Below, one piece after another: positions 29,240 to 51,975 of a stretch of DNA of 64,000 nucleotides. Within the stretch, counting starts at the first letter, position 1; each line of letters opens with the position of its first letter. The translations under genes were made by a program, and so were the position numbers. The notes beneath the pieces were generated by a model. It saw nothing but the letters and a program-made list of their open reading frames with translations. It was not told the origin of the DNA and did not search any database. The stretch comes from Gossypium raimondii (lineage: Eukaryota > Streptophyta > Magnoliopsida > Malvales > Malvaceae): assembly GCF_025698545.1 (NCBI RefSeq), contig NC_068575.1:51159980-51223979 (forward strand). Reading direction: 5' to 3'.

Positions 29240-30070
29240 CCTATCGAGCATTGTTGTCCGACATTTACTGGTGCTCAGATCGTTTAGTCCTTTCCTCGCC
29301 ATGACATTGTTTAGTTGGATAATGAAAATTTTGTTCAATGGCAGCAACATATTTGCTTGATTATTGCAGGTTATGAATTGACTAGTTTTTTTATGGGAAC
29401 GTTACCTGCTCCGCCGCGTTTTGTGCAGTCTCCGGAGGGATCTCTAGTTCCAAATCTGGATGCCTCGGCGTTCGTCCAACAGGATAGGTTACTTGCCTCC
29501 TGGTTACTTTCCACTATTAGTCATTCACTGTTGTCTTCTTTTACAGATGCTAGGACGTCATGTGATGTTTGGAATACTGCCACTCGTCTCTTCGCCGCGG
29601 TCACAGGTGCAAAGTTATCTCGCATTCGTCATAATTTACACTCGCTTAAGAAAGGTAATTTGTCAATAAAAGAGTATGTAGCAAAGATTCAGAATATCAG
29701 CACATTAATCGAGGCTTCTAGATCTCAGAGGTAGAGAAAGTGAAGATCGTCCTTGTGAGCCTGCCTTAAGAGTTTGACGCCGTGCTTACCTTAGTGTTGT
29801 TCTCGTTGGAAACCCTACCGTTAAAATGCCTCATTGATGTACTGTTGGAATATGAAAGTCGTCAGATGCGTACGGTTCAAGAAGTGTCGTTTCATGCTAA
29901 TCTTTTGGAGTCTGTTCCGTCGCTGCCGGTGGTGGACTCTGTCTGTGGTGGGCATTCCTCGTCTAGTGGTAGCGAGAAAGGGTTTCAATCCCAAATCCAA
30001 TGTCAGATTTGTGATCGATTTGGACATTTAGCCCAATGATGTTATTATCGTTATAACCGCGAGTACGATG
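29240..30070 (+). pseudogene. copia GAG remnant with zinc knuckle
   Basis: The frame from 29315 has the copia GAG pattern (W-Q-I---L--Y-L--F, LASWLLSTIS, VWNTATRLFA, SIKEYV-KI). It breaks at 29734. The zinc knuckle CQICDRFGHLAQ at about 30000-30040 has a stop where the final residues should follow. Upstream codons before 29315 are also interrupted by stops. Confidence 0.85.
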
Positions 30071-30833
30071 GTCAACCGTCGGTTGCTTGGGCTTCCAATC
30101 GATCGATTATGCTGGACAGGGTTCGGATGCTGGTTTCTTGTTTCTGTCGCCAGCCTCTGGTCAATTTGGTGGTCCTATGTCGATGGCGTCGTAGGGATTT
30201 TTTTCTAGTGGTAACTGTTGGGGTGGTCATTTGCCGTCTACTGTGCATCCCATGCCTATGTCGTACACTAAGGTTTTTAACCGTTTTGCTGCATTTGATG
30301 ATGGAGTAGGTCTGTCGTTTGGGCACCATGCTGGGTCAAGCCAGCCATTTGGGCCTGGACATAAGACTCAATTTGCGCTTGGGTTGGGTTCGCAGTTTGG
30401 GCCTGTTGTTAGGTTCATCAGGCCGAATAATTTTGGCCAACATACTGGGCTGCCCGTGCGTGCTAAGTCATCTGGCCAGACCAAAATTTTAAGGGTGAAT
30501 ATCCTTCACTTGGGCTGACTTCTAATATTCTTTCAAATGGGTCGACATCAAATTGTGTGGAGTTTGCAAGTTCTCTTGGTTATGGCCGCGAGCTTAGGAT
30601 TTCAGGCGGAGATGTCTATAATGCATCTGGGTCGTCTGTTCTTTGGCAGACCAAACCAATGGCTTGTGTTTATACTGGGTCAGATCTGTGCATTGGGCTA
30701 TGTCGACTACCCAATTTATATGCATCTGATATATCTAACTTTACTGGGTCTAATATTAATGCCACTCATTTTGGGTCCAATTTTGATGGTAATGATTCAT
30801 ATATTCCTATGCCTGTAGGAACTGTGTCCTGGT

Positions 30834-31832
30834 TAGAGGTGTGCATGGGCTGGGCTAGGCTCAACTAAAAATTTAGGCTCGTTTGCTAGGCCCAAGCTCG
30901 ACCCAAAAAATTGCCCTAGCCTGATCCAGATAAAAATGCTAAAACCCATACCCGATTCGGCCCGGCCATATTAATTTTTATATTATTTTTTATGTGATTT
31001 TAAAATATATAATACATCAAAAACACTAAAAACATCAAAATAAATATTAAAAAAAATAGAATTTTTTTGTCCTTTAGTGAATTCGGGCCGGGCCTGGGCA
31101 AAAAATGCCTTACCCGAGGCCCGACCTATTTTTTATACGGGCCTTATTTTTTTATTCAAGCCCATTTTTCGAGTCTATATTTTTGCCCAAACCCTCCTAC
31201 ATAGGGGTGTTCATTCGGTTAACTGACCTGAAATAACATTAACCGAATTAACCGACCTTTCAAAATTTTTAACCGTTAACCAAACTGAATTTTTTTCAAA
31301 AAAAAGTAACCGAACAGAAATTAACCGAAAAAAATTTTTGGTTAAAAATTAACCGAATTAACCGAATTACCCGAATTAACTGAATTAACCAGATTACCCG
31401 AATTACCCGAATTAACCGAATTAACCGAATTGAATCACTATATAATTAAATTATTTTTAGACTTTTAGACTTTAGTTTTAGTTTTAGTTTTAGAATTTTA
31501 TTTTTATTTATTAAATTATTTGTAATTTTTATGATTGGGTTAGGTTGGGTAATTGGGTTGGGTTGAATATTTGGGTTTGGATTGGGTTTAGGTGAATAGT
31601 GGGCCTATTTATATATTATAATTTTATTTATTAATTTTTTTGGTTAAACCGAAAAAATTCGGTTAACCGACCGGTTTCGAACCGAATTAACCGTTAACCA
31701 AAAAATTAAAAAATAATTAACCGACCCCGACCGAAAAAATTTGGCTAACCGACCGAATTTTGCACACCCCTACTCCTACATTTTACCAGGCCTTCAGGTT
31801 GGGCCGGGTGGCCTGACCCATGAGCAGGTCTA
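30834..31832. mobile_element. Non-autonomous hAT-type element inserted in the copia element
   Basis: Ends TAGAGGTGTGCATGGG and, reversed, TAGACCTGCTCATGGG. It is flanked by GTCCTGGT (30826-30833) and GTCTTGGT (31833-31840), a 7-of-8 match to an 8-bp target duplication. The copia reading continues across: the codons for a tryptophan and YPDSGATHH resume at the right flank. GC-rich GGCCCGGCC-type repeats fill the arms. It was itself invaded by the element at 31202-31772. Confidence 0.85.
31202..31772. mobile_element. hAT-type MITE nested in the previous element
   Basis: Ends TAGGGGTGTTCATTCGG and, reversed, TAGGGGTGTGCAAAATTCGG, with a perfect 8-bp target duplication CTCCTACA at 31194-31201 and 31773-31780. 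The interior carries a short-period array of ATTAACCGA/ATTACCCGA units at 31346-31432. No transposase. This is the youngest of three nested insertions here. Confidence 0.93.
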
Positions 31833-31840
31833 GTCTTGGT

Positions 31841-32205
31841 ATCCGGATTCAGGGGCTACGCACCATGTCTGTCGCGATGCCTCTACTTTGAATGACTCTA
31901 CACCTTACTTAGGTACATCCTTTCTCTTAATGGGTGACGGGACTCCCACCAGGATCTCATTTGTTGGATATTATGTTTTACCTACACAGATTAAATTGCT
32001 TCGTTTGTCTAATGTTTTGTGTTTACAGACTATATGGAAAAATCTCCTATCTATGTCTCAGTTTGCCACTGACAATAACGTGTTTTTTTAATTTCATCTG
32101 ACTTATTGTGTTATTAAGGACATCAAGACTCAGGAAATTTTACTGAGAGGCCACATTCGTGATAGGCTCTATCATTTTTCTCCGCCGAATGCTTTTGATC
32201 AGTTT
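31841..32205 (+). pseudogene. copia protease and pre-integrase remnant
   Basis: Just right of the nested elements the frame gives YPDSGATHHVCRD, the aspartic-protease active site (DSGA) of copia polyproteins, then GDGTPTRISFVG and LSNVLCLQTIWKNLLSMSQF. An in-frame stop falls at about 32090. Confidence 0.85.
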
Positions 32206-32208
32206 GTT

Positions 32209-33527
32209 GTGGCTCCTTCTATTGCCAACAATGGACTCCAGACTCGTCTTACCAGCTATAATATTTTTACTTTCGGGCACAAACTTCTTGGTCATCCCTC
32301 TGCTTCTATAGTTAAATCTGTTTTAGATAAATGTAATATTGCTTTCGATAAATTTTACCTTGATAATGTTTATACTGCATGTCAGAAAGGGAAGTATCAT
32401 AAATTGCTTTTTCCAAACTCTACTACTGAATATAATGATCCTTTTGTTTGGGTTGTCTCCAATTTATGGGGACCTGCGTCTGTTGCTTGTGGAAGTAATT
32501 GGTATAATGTCTCGTTTATTAACATGTGCACTCGCTTTACTTGGATTTATCTTATTCGCCAAAAATTTCAGGTGGTGGATTGCTTTGTTTAGTTTTAGCA
32601 GTTAGTCAAAACTTAGTTTGGGAGAAATGTCAAACAATTTCAGAGTGATTGGGGTGGAGAGTTTCGAGCTTTCACGTCCGTTTTGGCTACTCAAGGGATA
32701 GTTCATAGGTTGTCCTGTTCACATACAACCGAACAAAATGGGTGGCTGAACGCAAACACCGGCATATTGTTGACGTGGGTCTCACACTTTTGGCCCAAGC
32801 AAATCTTCCTATGGATTATTAGGGCTACGTATTTTGTTGTGCTGTTTATCTCATTAATCATCTTCCTACTTCAGTTTTGAAGGGTTAGTCTCCGTACAAG
32901 GTTTTTCATAGACAAGACCCCACATATGATCATCTACGAGTATTTGGGTGTTGTTGTTTTTCATATTTGTGTCTTTTTCTGCGTCATAAGTTGGATTTTC
33001 CTTTTCAGCCCTGTATGTTCTTGGGGTATAGTTCCCAACATAAAGGTTATATATGTCTCACACCGGATGGTAAGATAGTCATTTTTCGTCACGTTGTGTT
33101 TGATGAACAACGGTTTCTGTCTACTACGTCTGCTAAGGGTTCTGAGCCTCAGTTTAGACAGTATATCTCAACATATGTTCCTATTGTTCAACCTCTCTCT
33201 TGTCGGCCCACGAAGTCCTTGTTCGCTCAACCCCCTGAGTCATTATCTCCTGCTCCTGTTTTTTGTCCCTCGCCCTCTGTCTTAGGAGTTCTCCAGGCTG
33301 CTTTGGGCTCTGACTGTGAGCCACGTCGTCTCTCTTCCTTACCCACTGGAGACAGTGTTCCCGGTCCAACTACAATTATGTCAAATATTTCATCGTCTCC
33401 TTTGTCTATGACGAATACTCATCCAATGGTTACTCGGTCTAAGGCCGGTATTTTTAAGCCCAATGCTATGTCTGTTGAAGCTGTAGAACCCCACACGATT
33501 GAGGAAGCCTTTTCTACCGCAGAATGA
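32209..33527 (+). pseudogene. copia integrase remnant
   Basis: Contains HKLLGHPS (GAG-pre-integrase/HHCC region, about 32278), a core with WGPASVACGSNWYNVSFINM, then SDWGGEFRAFTSVLATQGIV and HTTEQNG around the second and third acidic positions, and a C-terminal segment with CMFLGYSSQHKGYICL at about 33015. Stops and frameshifts between segments (32592, about 32880) show decay. Confidence 0.85.
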
Positions 33528-34236
33528 CGTGCAACAGCACAAGCTGAGTATGATGCCCTCGTTAATAATTCCACCTGGGAACTTGTTCTGTTACCAAATA
33601 GTCACAAGGTGATCAGATGTAAGTGGTTTTTTAAAGTAAAGAAAAATCCTGATGGAACTGTCGCCCGTCGTAAGGCTTGGTTAGTAGCAAAAGGATGTTC
33701 TTAAGTACTTGGATGTGATTTCAAGGAAACATTTAGTCTGGTAGTAAAACATGCTACTATTCGAACCATATTGTCTGTTGTTGTTTTCAAAGGTTGGTAG
33801 CTCTGTCAGGTAGATGTGAATAATGCGTTTTGAAATGGCGATCTTGCTGATGAAGTGTTCATGCAACAACCTCCAGTGTATGTTCAATATGGTCCGACTG
33901 GCGAATCTTTAGTATGTCGTCTGAAGAAAGCTTTGTATGGGCTACGTCAGGCTCCGCGTGCCTGGTTTGATAAGTTGAAGTGTTTTCTCGTTTCTGTTGG
34001 TTTTTTCCTATCAAAGTCTAATGCATCTCTGTTTGTTCGAGTTACGCCTGACTCCACTGTTTATGTTCTTGTTTATGTGGATGATATTATCGTTAGTGGA
34101 AGTATGCCTAACTGCATAAGTAATTTTGTTCAGCAGTTGAATGAGGAGTTCTCCCTTAAAGATATGGGTGATCTTCATTATTTTCTAGGGATTGTGGTTA
34201 CTCATTCATCCACCGGGTGTCTTCATCTTTGCTAAC
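33528..34236 (+). pseudogene. copia reverse transcriptase remnant
   Basis: The segment has KVIRCKWFFKVKKNPDGTV-like sequence, then CRLKKALYGLRQAPRAWFDK and the catalytic YVDDI at about 34075, followed by FSLKDMGDLHYFLGI. Stops at about 33703, 33798 and 34233 and a damaged NAF-NG region mean no functional enzyme. Confidence 0.88.
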
Positions 34237-34628
34237 GAAAATACATCCGGGTGTTTTCATTATTGGACAGAAGTTCTATGACTAATGCTAAGAGTGTTCA
34301 TACTCTAATGATAAGCTCGTCTACCCTGTCCAAGGATGGCAGGGATCGTCTTCGTGACCTTATTGAATACATGAGTCTTGCAGGTGCTCTATAGTATACG
34401 GTCCTAACTCGACTTGATATTGCCTATGCAGTAAATCGTATATATCAGTTCATACATACATCTACTACTGTACTTTTGGTTGCATTAAAATGAATCTTGC
34501 AGTATTTATGTGGTACTCTTTATTATGGGATTGTCTTTCGTCCATCTGACAAGCTTTCTTTAGTTGGTTATGTCGATGCTAGCTGAGGGCTGAATTTTGA
34601 TGATCGTCGATCTACAACAGGCTACTTC

Positions 34629-34987
34629 GTGTATTTTGGTCACACACCTGTCTCTTGGTGTTCAAAAAAACAACAAGTTGTTTCGTGGTCTACGGCTGAG
34701 GCCGAATATCGGAGTCTCGCTGCACCTACCAGCGATGTTACTTGGTTGGTCTCGCTGCTAAAGGAGTTACAACTTCACTCTAACGATCCACTTACTATTT
34801 GGTGTGATAACTCTAGTGCCATCGCAGTTGCTGCTAATCCCGTCTTACATTCTAAGTTCAAACATGTAGAGCTTGACCTGTTCTTTGTCCGCGAGAAAGT
34901 AGCTGATGGTTCTATTGTCGCTGGTGAGGTACCTGTTTATGATTAGATTGCTGACATTCTTACCAAACCTCTGTCTATTTCATTCTT
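34629..34987 (+). pseudogene. copia RNase H remnant
   Basis: Reads PVSWCSKKQQVVSWSTAEAE with YRSLAA following, then WCDNSSAI and KHVELDLFFVRE, standard copia RNase H blocks. A stop replaces a codon before IADILTKPLS at 34946. Confidence 0.88.
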
Positions 34988-39335: not shown

Positions 39336-40223
39336 TACGAAAAACTGTATACAATTTATGGAAAGGGCACCTTAATTGATGGAGATTTATACCTATAAAA
39401 TTAAGGATAAGTATTAATATTGAATAGCAAATAATTATGAAAGTACCTAAAACATCGTAGCTCTAACCACTAATTTTAATTTTACAGACACCTTATGAGC
39501 AAACCTACTACTACTTGAGCTATGCATTAACATATTTACTTTCTATGATTGTGGCATTCACGATCTGACAACTCAAATGCAGCTTCAAATGGTGTTTAGT
39601 GATGATTCGTTCTCATATTGGTGTGACATTGCCTTGTTAAGGGCGCAGGTGTTTATGACATGTGTTGACATTTTATGATTTTGATGCTTTAGAGTGGCGG
39701 TGATATTTTGGCTTTGTTTGTGTTTGAAGGTGGTGAGCTTATGTTTTTTTAGGGATTTTTACTTTAGTGATTTTGATATTATATCAAAAGAAGAAGAAGA
39801 AACAATTAAAATTATTTTAAAAAAATCAAGATACACTTGTAACCCTTATTAAGTGGTTTTATTATTTTAATTGAGAAAATAAAGCTCTTTCCATTGAACG
39901 GAAAAACAAAATAAGTGTACTAAATATAATAAAATACAAAAATTATACATCAAATACTATTTTATTATTAAAACAAATGAAGACTTGAAAAGCAACTTAA
40001 TTTATTCTCAATAATATCAGGTTTTTGAAAAAAGAAAAAAAGTGACGAAAGCTTACGGAAGCATATCCAAGGTCAGAGCTTTCCAATATTTCGAAGGTCA
40101 AAAACTGCAAACAAACCCATTTCATCGCTCTCCAAAATTCAACCTTTAAATTTCTATAAATTACTTCCCTCCGGATTTGCTTTTGCAAAACAGAGAAAAC
40201 CAAGAGGATATCCATCAAAGAAA
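39336..40223. other. Promoter side of PI-1 copy B
   Basis: No gene. From about 39960 the sequence is similar to the upstream region of copy D (43930-44190), including CGAAAGCT, ATCCAAGGTCA and a TATAAAT box at 40155-40161, 69 bp before the start codon. Confidence 0.5.
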
Positions 40224-40512
40224 ATGACCGACTGCAGTGGTAAGCTTCTTTTTTCTCCCTTAACCATGTTTTATTCATTCTCAGAATTAACAAAGCGTGT
40301 CGTCGACTACAGATCCAGGAAAGAGTTCGTGGCCGGAGCTGGTGGGAACAAACGGCGAGGTGGCGGCACACATCATCGAAAAAGAAAACCCAAAGGTTAG
40401 TGTCCGAATCGTGAAAGAAGGAATGATGGTGACCATGGATTTTCGTTGTGATCGGGTGCGGGTTTGGGTGGACAACTATGGAATTGTGAAGACCACGCCT
40501 CACATTGGCTAA
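40224..40512 (+). CDS. PI-1 serine protease inhibitor, copy B
   Basis: Two exons, 40224-40239 and 40313-40512, give 71 residues: the start MTDCSDPGKSSWPELVG is the family signature. No signal peptide, no disulphide pair. The reactive loop reads EGMMVTMDFRC, so P1-P1' is Met47-Asp48, favouring chymotrypsin-, elastase- or subtilisin-like targets rather than trypsin. The core DRVRVWVDNYGIV and C-terminal PHIG are intact. PI-1 proteins block serine proteases of insects and microbes and are commonly wound/jasmonate-induced. The gene is a close duplicate of copy D (four or so amino-acid changes plus the start region). A 73-bp intron splits codon 6, as in the other copies. Confidence 0.93.
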
Positions 40513-41292: not shown

Positions 41293-41619
41293 AGGTAAAC
41301 TACATTAATAGTCACCCAGTTATGTTTCTTTTTCTTTTTTGTCACTCAATTATGAAAAGTTACAAAATGGTGAACTAACTATTATTATATTTTTATTTTG
41401 GTCACCAATTATGAAGAGTTACAAAATAGTCACTCAACTATTCAATTCTGTCTTTTTTTATCACCCAATTATTTGGGATTTTTGAGTGTTTCCATTTTTA
41501 CATTAGTCAGTGACAAAAAGATAAAATTGAATAATTGAGTGGTCATTTTGTAAGTTTTTATAGTTGATTGACAAAAAAAGAAAAAATCATAGTTGAGTGA
41601 CCTCTATTGTAGTTTACCC
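41293..41619. mobile_element. Mutator-like MITE, second copy
   Basis: The left end AGGTAAACTACATTAATAGT and right end GTAGTTTACCC mirror each other, with GTCACTCAATTATGA-type repeats in both orientations inside. Flanks TATAGGTTT (41284-41292) and TATAAATTT (41620-41628) match at 7 of 9 positions, consistent with an eroded 9-bp target duplication. Same terminal sequence as 19489-20218. Confidence 0.75.
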
Positions 41620-42569: not shown

Positions 42570-44193
42570 ATTGCTTTCTCTTTCTCCTTCTCTCTTGGAT
42601 TGCTGTGTGAGTTTCGAATTGCATCGGGCAGGATGTGTTTGATCTTTAAATACATGTCCCAAAGTATGAACACATTAATGTAAATGGTCTCTAGTCCCTG
42701 CCGACCTTTTTGAATGTTCATAATAAGTTTGGCGCCGCCCCTTTTTCAATGCCGATATTATGCGTACGTGGTGGTTGGCTTAGCAAGGCTTGATTTGTGA
42801 TCTGCTAAGTTCTTATCCTTTTTGCAGGCACTCAAAAAGAGTTGAATTTTCCCATTTATATCAAATTTGATCAAAGTAAAAAGCCTGTTCTAGTTTTAGT
42901 ATATCTTTTTTTAAAGTTTATCTCCACGTTAATTGCCTAGCATGAACTGCTTCCCTTTGATCTAATCCTATCTGTTTGCCAGTTGGAGATGGAAAATTTT
43001 CATTTAATAACAAAGTTAAAAAAAAAAAAAGCGTAAAGTATTTTTATTTTAGACATTAAAATATTTTTAGTAAAATCCTTTAATTAAAAGTATATACAAT
43101 CGATATGAACATAATTGTTTTACGTAAAATAAAGCTTAATATTAGTTTGTTATTTGATAAAAAGTAAATTTGTTTATTACTACTAGAGCATACATTACAT
43201 ATATTTTGTTTTAAATCAGTTCAAGTCAGTTTAATTGTTTAAGAGTTCAAACTGTTCAGTTACAAGTTGTTATTACTGTATTAATCACGTGTTGTAATGT
43301 AAGTCAGAGATTTAATTATTGAAGCTCTCTCACTTCTAATTTGTAGTCAAGTTAGTTGGTTTTCACATAATTAAGAAAGTTAGTTTCTCTCGGTGAAATT
43401 AGAAAGATTGTTGAGAGAGTCGAAATTAAATTGTAATTTTACAATAGCAAAAATATAATTTTATCATTTTAATAGCTTATATTTTTATAATTTTTATCTT
43501 TATAATTTGTAAATAATTAAATCAAAATTTTATATTTTGAAGGAAGGCTAAAATGTTTACCTCTACTATTTTAAAATTTTTAAAGGGTTTATTTTCTTTG
43601 CAGGGCCAGGGCTCTACCAACCCCCTAGTTTTGCCCCCTGTTCTTCTTCTTCCTCTTCCTTCAATAATTTTTTATACCATTCATGGTAACTTTATAATAA
43701 ATAAATAACTCATTATCTTTTGATAAATTGTGATTTTATTCATCCAAAAGTACATAATTGTTTTGGTACCAAAAATATAAATAACATTTTTAGTTCCAAA
43801 TAAAGACTTGAAGGCAAAGTAATTGTGAGAAGCAATCCAAAAAAATGTAAGATGTTTAATTGTTTATGTTGATAGCAGCTTCGTATTGAAAATTCAATAA
43901 ATTTGTACCATCATTTTTACAAAAATGATACTAAACAAATTATTAATATTTGTAATTCTATCCGGATTGAAGGCCCCCTGTGATAACAGAAGAAAAAAGT
44001 ATACGAAAGCTATCCAAGGTCAAAGCTTTCAAAAGTCAAAACTTCAAACAAAAGGAAAACACATTTCATTCAAAATAATCTCCTCTCTAAAATTCAACGT
44101 TTAATTCTGTATTAACTCATTACCCCATCTATAAATTCTTGGCTATCATATCACAGAACAAAGAAAAGTAAGCGGCTATCTATATCAAAGAAA
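42570..44193. other. Divergent promoter region between PI-1 copies C and D
   Basis: The left part mirrors the copy A promoter, the right part (from about 43930) the copy B promoter; a TATAAAT box lies at 44130-44136, 64 bp before the copy D start. The middle is AT-rich with a short pyrimidine-rich stretch at 43600-43670. No gene. Confidence 0.5.
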
Positions 44194-44529
44194 ATGACAG
44201 ATTGCATCGGTAAGCTTCCCCCCCCCCCCCCAATTGAAGCCAAAAGTAACAAATCATGGCTTAAGTCTTTAATAAAACCTATTTTCTTTCTCAGAATTAA
44301 CAATGTTTGTAAATCTTTGCCGACTACAGATTCAGGAAAGAGCTCGTGGGCAGAGCTGGTGGGAATAAACGGCGAGGTGGCGGCACACATCATCGCAAAA
44401 GAAAATCCAAAGGTTAGCGTCCAAATCGTAAAAGAAGGAATGATGGTGACCATGGATTTTCGTTGTGATCGAGTACGTGTTTGGGTGGACAACTATGGAA
44501 TTGTGAAGACCACGCCTCACATTGGCTAA
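44194..44529 (+). CDS. PI-1 serine protease inhibitor, copy D
   Basis: Exons 44194-44209 and 44330-44529 give 71 residues beginning MTDCIDSGKSSWAELVG. P1-P1' is Met47-Asp48 in EGMMVTMDFRC, and the C-terminus PHIG is intact. The conserved SWPELVG is SWAELVG here, and the helix carries AHIIAKEN. It is a recent duplicate of copy B. The 120-bp intron has a length divisible by three and no in-frame stop, so an unspliced transcript would encode a 111-residue protein with a Pro-rich insert; the intron holds a run of 14 C (44218-44231) right after the donor. The spliced form matches the family and is preferred. Confidence 0.92.
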   Translation: MTDCIGKLPPPPPIEAKSNKSWLKSLIKPIFFLRINNVCKSLPTTDSGKSSWAELVGINGEVAAHIIAKENPKVSVQIVKEGMMVTMDFRCDRVRVWVDNYGIVKTTPHIG

Positions 44530-50096: not shown

Positions 50097-51739
50097 AGTG
50101 TGAAAAAGCGAAACTCACACTACATGAAAGAAAGCCACTTCTCTTATCCATTGATAGTCAAAACAAAGCCTTAAAGGCTTTATAAATTAATTGATCACAG
50201 TTCTCAAAAACAGTTCCAAATATTGGGTTCATGTTGAAAACTCGAATGCGAAATTGTTGAAGTTGGAATAAATGAGATACATTGAAATTTTCTCTAGCCT
50301 ATATAAGCTAACCATTCAAGAAAACCCTACTATTTTTATACACTAAATCTTTTACAGTACGTTTGGTTCACTAAAATGAAATAGGACTGTAATGGAATAA
50401 TCATTCTGTGGGAATGAAATAAAGCCGTAATTGAATGAGTATTATAATAGTATTTATGCGTTTGGTTGAGAGGAATAGATATGTAATAGCAAAAAAAATG
50501 CTCGAATAACGAATATGCCCTTTTAAATTTTAATGTATTTTTCAAATCAATTTAATATTAAAGAATAATATTTAAATATAAAATATTAAAATATTTTTTA
50601 TATTAAAATATTTAAAACATTTTATATTTATATTTATATTTTTTGAAATTTTGAAATAATATTTTATATTAAATTATATATTAAAAGATTTTTTTTTATT
50701 TTCTCTATCTTCTTCTTCTTGGTTAGTCTCTTCTTTCTTCCAAATTCATCTTCATCTTCCTCTCCAAATTTTAACGAACAATGGCTAACCATAAGAGCTC
50801 CTACTATCCATTCATATGCGTGCAATTAACAGGTTAATAATATTTTGCATGAGCAGGACAGTAACTTTTATGATGCATGACCAGTGATTCAATTCTTTAA
50901 TCTTAAGGAATCATGACATATTTGTACTGAACCAAAAAATACCTTAGTGGAAGTAAACTGATTATATTCATGCATTAGAATTCATATTGGTTGAATTTAA
51001 CAATTTGCTGATACAAGAGCAGCAACTGCCGGCGAACTCCGGCAAGTAAAACCTAGTCTCAATTAAAGCCCATATAGGCACTTATTAATCGCAATTTCTA
51101 GTACTTATATTCACGGATTGCGTAAGGCTTTCATTAAACATAGGTTTGTCAATGTTATTAGCACAAATAAAGGAGACTATTGACATTTTTAACCTCAGGT
51201 AGCACATTAAATATGCTTCTGATTTAAAAACTCAAAGAAGAGCCGCAGCACTTAAAAGGAAATGGTCCTAACTAGTAAATACTAGAGCTGATTAATTTGT
51301 AAATGACCACGTATAAAACTGATTACAGGAGACAAAATTCCATAAAGCTTTGTGAACAATACAATTTCACAGCCAATAAGCAATTTTTGAGCAAGCAATG
51401 AACATACGCAGAAACAAAAGATGTAGAAGGAATATAATCAGAAGTATATATAATAGAACTATTATACTCCAATCCATGTATTTGGAATATCCAAGTCTAA
51501 CACTTACTCCATGGGCTCAGCTCTTAACGCGGCCCTTGAAGGGCATGCTTAAAATATTCAGAAGTATATATAACGAGGATGTCGGGTTGGATGGTGAGAA
51601 TTTGGGGTTAATTTTTTATTTCACACGCTCAATCTTCCATTGAGTAAAGGGACAATCAACCAAACAATTGGACTGTTATCCACTTACATTCTCCCAACCA
51701 AACATGCTCTAAATAGCAAATTTTTAAAATATTAAATTT
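50097..51739. other. Intergenic, possible MITE-like ends
   Basis: ACAGTACGTTTGGTTCAC at about 50354 and, reversed, AGAGCATGTTTGGTTGGGAG at about 51693-51712 resemble Harbinger/hAT-type termini, but arms are short and no target duplication is convincing. Nothing coding is supported between them. Confidence 0.35.
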
Positions 51740-51901
51740 GGCAGGGACCGCGCGTACGCAGGCCCCCTCTCTCACAAATTATGACGTGCACTCTCCCACT
51801 TGGGGAGATGTTAAGCTGGCGCCCTCACCAAGTGCAATGTGAGTCGCCAACCTAGGCCATGGGCCTCATTGATCGCCCATACGCCCCGTCCAGGTAAGTG
51901 A
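51740..51901 (-). ncRNA. U1: U1 spliceosomal snRNA gene
   Basis: Read on the minus strand the 162 bases follow plant U1 throughout. The 5'-splice-site-pairing segment ACTTACCTG (from 51899) is intact. Stem-loop I has ATGGGCGATCA and GGCCCATGGCCTAGGTT, stem-loop II carries the U1A-binding loop ATTGCAC, stem-loop III has TCTCCCCAAGTGGGAGA, the Sm site is ATAATTTGTG, and the final stem-loop has GGGGGCCTGCG and CGCGCGGTCCC. U1 pairs with 5' splice sites to start spliceosome assembly. Differences from the plant U1 I recall: the first two bases are TC instead of AT, the U1-70K loop reads GATCAATGAGG rather than a GATCA-GAAGG form, and the Sm-flanking GTGGTAG is GTGAGAG. It may be a functional variant or a recently relaxed copy; the promoter is intact. 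Confidence 0.9.
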
Positions 51902-51923
51902 GTTTAGCGTTGGTGCTCACATT

Positions 51924-51975
51924 CCTTTTATAAGTTCTCCTAGCACTAACCTCCTTATGCAGCACGATGTGGGAC
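51924..51975 (-). promoter_or_regulatory. Plant snRNA promoter: USE and TATA of the U1 gene
   Basis: Minus strand. GTCCCACATCG at 51975-51965 matches the plant upstream sequence element RTCCCACATCG exactly. TATAAAAGG begins at 51932, with 32 bp between the two, the spacing of RNA polymerase II type plant snRNA genes (polymerase III U6/U3 genes have about one helical turn less). TATA to RNA start is 31 bp. Confidence 0.92.

Follow-up and report, generated by a model that had tools for sequence, protein, structure and literature searches.

The window, that is, the whole 64-kb stretch of DNA analysed here, holds a U1 snRNA gene on its minus strand (Table 1). The Rfam model RF00003 matches this gene over its full length (positions 1-166 of 166; cmscan, 117.3 bits against a gathering score of 69.5, E 6.2e-29), and it is the only Rfam match above a gathering score in the window. 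None of 200 shuffled sequences gave a predicted fold as stable as that of the gene (z -3.57), whose minimum-energy structure shows all four stem-loops and helix H. A first-pass annotation, made from the letters, had placed a U1 gene on this strand and had described the bases that pair with the 5' splice site, the U1A loop (ATTGCAC) and the Sm core (ATTTGTG) as kept; each of these statements holds, nucleotides 3-11 being likewise intact. Among the 70 positions written in upper case in the Rfam consensus, the gene differs at 10 (1, 2, 34, 35, 92, 94, 105, 117, 135 and 152), and L005, a single unrelated U1 taken as a yardstick, differs at five. Standard pairing is found at 39 of the 45 ungapped Rfam pairs, whereas the count averaged 23.0 and never exceeded 33 when the same number of changes was placed at random 20,000 times. 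The yardstick was obtained from pattern scans of IMG/VR and prokaryote genomes, which gave 18 loci outside the genome; all 18 were scanned with Rfam, and L005 (1121-1283, 151.7 bits) was the only U1 among them. Its contig is filed as a Flavobacteriaceae MAG and is presumably a misbinned eukaryotic contig.

Table 1. Elements of the U1 gene in the window and of its promoter and 3' region
Feature	Position	Strand	Basis or remark
USE GTCCCACATCG, exact RTCCCACATCG	51965-51975	-	sequence match
TATA box TATAAAAGG	51924-51932	-	begins 32 bp past the USE; first T 31 nt before RNA position 1
U1 snRNA, 161 nt (window copy, L047)	51741-51901	-	RF00003 match, fold and kept pairs; four stem-loops and helix H
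RNA positions 1-2, UC for AU	51900-51901	-	AU in 19/19 best copies
Nucleotides 3-11 ACUUACCUG, 5'-splice-site pairing, intact	51891-51899	-	sequence
Loop of stem-loop I GAUCAAUGAG (U1-70K site)	51865-51874	-	positions 33-34 variable in the genome; A35>G at 51867
U1A loop AUUGCAC, intact	51832-51838	-	sequence
Sm core AUUUGUG, intact	51773-51779	-	sequence
First two bases past the Sm core, AG for G[C/U]	51771-51772	-	alignment
Place of the 3' box, CA(N8)ATTTTAA, without AGT core	51724-51740	-	one mismatch from CA(N)3-10AGTNNAA

A search of the genome (751-Mb assembly, 281 contigs) with RF00003 gave 28 matches, 25 of which lie over the cut-off. All 28 loci were fetched with 600 bp on each side and aligned, and the 25 were realigned for the counts; L052-L054, which fall below the cut-off, are left out of the alignment statistics, and the tree also omits L050 and L051. 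The 19 best copies (L027-L045, 126.5 bits or more), a group drawn after the scores had been seen, all start with ATACTTACCTGG and have a mean pairwise identity of 0.869. The comparison of covariance scores with those of true U1 genes, which the first-pass annotation had proposed as a check, gave an intermediate answer: with its 117.3 bits the window copy ranks 21st of 28, whereas the 19 best copies span 126.5-146.8 bits. Four of these 19 lie on the small contig C184, whose U1 copies are near-identical (up to 98.8%) to those of a cluster on C10 (7.3-7.4 Mb) and may duplicate them. In other words, C184 may be an unplaced duplicate of the C10 cluster that inflates the copy count.

The promoter is of the kind expected for a Pol II snRNA gene. 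The first-pass annotation had reported an intact USE and TATA box at spacings of 32 bp and 31, and both elements and distances were recovered. The USE, in the form RTCCCACATCG taken from that annotation, has its sole exact match on either strand of the window at this gene; the element is printed as RTCCACATCG, with one C fewer, in PMC545797. Genome-wide, the exact form precedes three of the 28 U1 loci (L030, L046 and the window copy), the other 25 having at least one mismatch. All 25 copies over the cut-off have a gap of 32-34 between the best USE-like match and the TATA-like element, and the gap of 32 in the window copy places its USE and TATA box at Pol II spacing; according to PMC9841428, this distance sets the choice of polymerase in land plants. 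The intact promoter had also entered into the readings of the first-pass annotation; as evidence of function it says little here, because the damaged copies L050, L051 and L054 are also preceded by a TATA-like box at -32 and by a USE with 1-3 mismatches. L054 (C10:7.338 Mb) consists of a promoter and only about the first 69 nt of U1, followed by unrelated sequence, which indicates that promoters persist for longer than the genes do.

All 19 best copies have the start of the TATA-like element at -32; the window copy has it at -31, and its RNA position 1 is a U. Two purines lie near the start, an A at 51899 and an A at 51903, respectively 33 and 29 nt past the first T of the TATA box. Pol II generally starts at a pyrimidine-purine step, a rule that was used here beside the spacing. 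Since the TATA box stands at -31 rather than -32 and position 1 is no longer an A, transcription would most likely start at A3 (51899).

At the other end of the gene, no exact 3' box of the form CA(N)3-10AGTNNAA occurs downstream, a point absent from the first-pass annotation, and the one-mismatch level of the candidate in Table 1 is reached at 6% of places in the window. The 3' box is stated to be necessary for the processing of plant snRNAs in PMC5079582. The strict consensus is missed by 11 of the 19 best copies, whereas AGT begins 8-12 nt past the RNA end in 18 of them (L043 is the exception), so that the AGT core is the fairer test. This core is missing from the window copy, from L046 and from the damaged L050, L051 and L054. 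The adjoining segment 51574-51711, just 3' of the gene, has imperfect inverted ends; a MITE that had cut off the 3' box was considered for this segment and dropped, as a genome search found no second copy.

Within the RNA, the window copy departs from all 19 best copies by AU>UC at positions 1-2, by A35>G and by G>A after the Sm core. The terminal AU, a sequence feature and not a condition of Rfam membership, is thus absent. Directly after the Sm core the window copy has an A, where each of the other 24 copies over the cut-off has a G. Both the altered first two bases and the altered Sm flank had been noticed in the first-pass annotation and are confirmed by the alignment. Each of the lesion copies L048-L051 is hit in nucleotides 3-11 or in the Sm core, and the window copy is unhit in both; a changed U1A loop is carried by L029, one of the 19 best copies.

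Through the private changes at positions 1, 2 and 133, a weak contact of three pairs is predicted to become a Watson-Crick helix of four, in which the 5' end (51898-51901) pairs with the Sm site and its flank (51772-51775). The predicted probability of this contact is 0.75-0.86 in the window copy, 0.61 in L046 and at most 0.42 in the 19 best copies. The helix is possibly due to chance.

The loop of stem-loop I, where U1-70K binds, had been singled out as changed, a description that is accurate for one base and otherwise fits ordinary variation in this genome. Among the 19 best copies the ten-base loop takes 14 sequences (12 in the 15 copies that remain without the four on C184), and position 34, shown as highly conserved in Rfam, varies among these 19 well-kept copies (G in 9, C in 6, A in 2, U in 2). 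A29, U30, C31, A35 and A36 are invariant in them, and the A35>G of the window copy occurs in none of the 19. The change at position 34 is therefore ordinary for the genome, and that at position 35 is not. In the human structure, loop 3 of U1-70K encloses C33 and G34 and forms salt bridges with the phosphates of both; C31 and A32 are stacked against the sheet of the RRM, and A29 is paired to A36 (PMC4383343). Among the loop bases named for that structure, G28, A29, U30, C31, A32, A36 and G37 are kept in the window copy, position 34 is U for G and position 35 is G for A.

The protein partner was sought in the same genome, exon by exon and with the best candidates scored. The N-terminal domain of U1-70K gave one match and the RRM gave 41, of which three are exons of a single locus at 72-90% identity; the remaining 38, at 26-40% identity, are presumably other RRM proteins. 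Among the best candidates scored, both searches found this one U1-70K locus. As 115 U1-70K sequences are reported over 67 plant species (PMC8211703), a second, missed gene would not be unusual. The RRM of the plant protein aligns without gaps to that of human U1-70K over 102 residues, and all the residues named in the structure paper are retained (Phe106, Tyr112, Lys138, Phe148, Arg172, Leu175, Asp177, Arg190, Arg191, Leu196 and Arg200, counted on the RRM alignment). Among the matches listed in a literature search, seen as titles and abstract openings, none concerned variant U1 loops in plants, and papers matching U1 sequence strings were unrelated by title.

The first-pass annotation had offered two readings, a variant U1 with altered protein binding or a copy just starting to decay, and the age of the copy bears on the latter. 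Its mean identity to the 19 best copies is 0.754 (best 0.783), which amounts to about 25% divergence. The closest partner in a tree of 23 copies and L005 is L046 (C13:32.332 Mb), joined to it with support 82/91, although the two are only 0.770 identical and have long end branches (0.24 for L046, 0.21 for the window copy). Six columns are common to this pair and absent from the 19 best copies, and four of the six make up the compensated pairs 94-116 and 95-115, both at the base of stem-loop III. Within the 600 bp compared on each side, flank homology ends about 33 bp upstream (with L030) and about 27 bp downstream (with L045), so a recent segmental duplication was rejected, no copy sharing the flanks beyond these points. 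Judged by its divergence, the window copy is old, not fresh.

The fold has been kept in spite of this divergence. Family pairs are standard at 49 of 51 positions although 25 paired bases have changed, and eight double compensations are found where 1.27 would be expected, a number reached in none of 2000 shuffles. Three of the compensated pairs are adjacent in stem-loop II (columns 60-62 with 75-77), their 5' bases being unchanged in L046. An old copy whose fold is kept with eight double compensations does not fit the beginning of decay. Against this, the lesion copies L048-L051 still keep 43-44 of 50-51 pairs, the 19 best copies keep 44-51, and the lesion copies, too, retain more pairs than random placement would give (all p 0.001 or less, against the consensus), so that part of the signal is due to inherited constraint. 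L044, itself among the 19 best, retains no more than 44 of 50. Kept pairs alone, therefore, do not separate the groups. Among changed pairs, 15 of 17 are kept in the window copy versus 45 of 74 in the four lesion copies (Fisher p 0.045), or 14 of 16 versus 35 of 64 when counted against the nearest of the 19 (p 0.021). On the latter count the window copy has seven double compensations and each lesion copy 0-3. Among all pairs, 2 of 51 are broken versus 29 of 203 (p 0.054). The significance of these contrasts is modest, and the groups compared were defined once the scores were known. The columns that are invariant in the 19 make the window copy look as decayed as the lesion copies, with 10 of 88 changed versus 8-12.

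On balance, the window copy appears to be an old, divergent U1 paralogue whose fold was under selection for much of its separate history and which is now probably weakened. It is a genuine U1 copy and probably a weak or failing one, not a new kind of RNA, and decay, if there is any, would have come late in a long, partly constrained history. The overall interpretation of the first-pass annotation is thus retained for the U1 gene, the USE and TATA box and the variant 5' end and Sm flank, and is modified in that the 70K loop is mostly ordinary and the copy not one at the start of its decay. A plain pseudogene, drifting since its duplication, its promoter and stems surviving by chance or dating from before the decay, would fit the rank of 21 among 28, the changed invariant columns and the retention, in damaged copies as well, of promoters and of an above-random number of pairs. 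It is nevertheless a rather unlikely explanation, as only 2 of 17 changed pairs are broken in the window copy versus 29 of 74 in the lesion copies, the seven double compensations against the nearest relative exceed those of any lesion copy, and nucleotides 3-11 and the Sm core are both intact where each lesion copy is hit in one. A chance resemblance or an assembly artefact can be practically dismissed, given the full-length match at E 6.2e-29 with a promoter in place, on a contig of 63 Mb.

It is unlikely, too, that L046 and the window copy form an expressed lineage of functional variant U1 making a distinct snRNP with altered 70K and Sm contacts, as human vU1 genes do. Fold, USE, TATA box, 5'-splice-site bases, U1A loop and Sm core have been kept over a long branch, both members are among the three loci with an exact USE, and human vU1 genes with substitutions in the U1-70K domain have effects when knocked out (PMC13172311). 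However, both members lack the AGT core, L046 has U5>A in the 5'-splice-site region and TTTAAA in place of the TATA box, and the low identity of the pair (0.770) and its support of 82/91 also count against this reading. A more elaborate version, in which the two copies are remains of an anciently separate U1 lineage with a distinct snRNP and in which the window copy uses its 5' end-Sm helix, is quite improbable. If it were true, Sm proteins would have to open an otherwise closed RNA; on human U2, Sm ring formation dropped when the whole Sm site was paired (PMC10584915). A transcription start at A3 would make this closed-helix reading fail.

Under the favoured reading of a weakened old paralogue, Pol II would still transcribe the gene, and an RNA starting at A3 would remain able to pair with normal 5' splice sites through its 5' end. 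The missing AGT core would make 3'-end cleavage inefficient, A35>G would weaken U1-70K binding and the altered Sm flank may weaken Sm assembly. Little mature snRNP would then form, and the copy, if it works at all, would do so as a low-abundance ordinary U1. Some of these losses are perhaps tolerated, as L046 also lacks the AGT core and more than half of the best copies miss the strict 3' box. In humans, U1-70K makes up for the suboptimal Sm motif of U1, and 3' processing suffers when the 70K site is lost (PMC10801842); partial 70K binding was retained by a milder mutant of human loop I (PMC4822034). Because of this compensation and this mutant, snRNP assembly of the window copy is expected to be weakened, not abolished.

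These features can be set beside known systems. In Arabidopsis, 14 U1 copies are described, 10 of them judged likely active, and the active ones average 87% identity (PMC545797). The present genome is similar in its USE and TATA elements, its U1 fold and its divergent paralogues, with 25 copies over the cut-off and 86.9% average identity among the 19 best. The window copy is more diverged, averaging 75.4% to these 19, and is without the terminal AU, A35, the G that follows the Sm core and the AGT core. It resembles human vU1 as a U1 paralogue changed in the U1-70K domain; human vU1.3 and vU1.4 change the 5'-splice-site bases (PMC13172311), whereas the window copy keeps them. Like the unstable human U1v15, it would be expected to do poorly under snRNA quality control. 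The failure of U1v15 comes from its Sm motif, while here the Sm core is intact and the 3' flank, 70K loop and 3' box differ (PMC10801842). Arabidopsis also has U1-U4 clusters (PMC545797). A linked U4 gene was rejected, the Rfam scan finding none within the window; a genome search for U4 gave nine matches, of which two, on C9, follow a U1 copy downstream at about 0.8 kb.

By itself the window copy matters little, many divergent U1 copies being already known in plants. The by-product is worth more: positions 33-34 vary freely in otherwise intact U1s of a genome in which one U1-70K locus was found. This makes it testable whether plant U1-70K reads the loop by its backbone and by A35 and A36, and not by bases 33-34, and the U1 variants of the genome form a natural series with which the use of individual copies could be measured.

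Elsewhere in the window, retrotransposon-like reading frames occur in several frames at 29315-34946, and the one scanned, at 33834-34235, matches RVT_2, the Copia-type reverse transcriptase. A weak mir-8517 match on the plus strand (41419-41554; 29.8 bits against a gathering score of 70, E 0.032) is probably due to chance. A potato inhibitor I gene (PF00280) lies at 44116-44529, and a reading frame about 4 kb away (40029-40400), which has the peptide KKMTDC.GKL in common with it, is perhaps a second or decayed copy.
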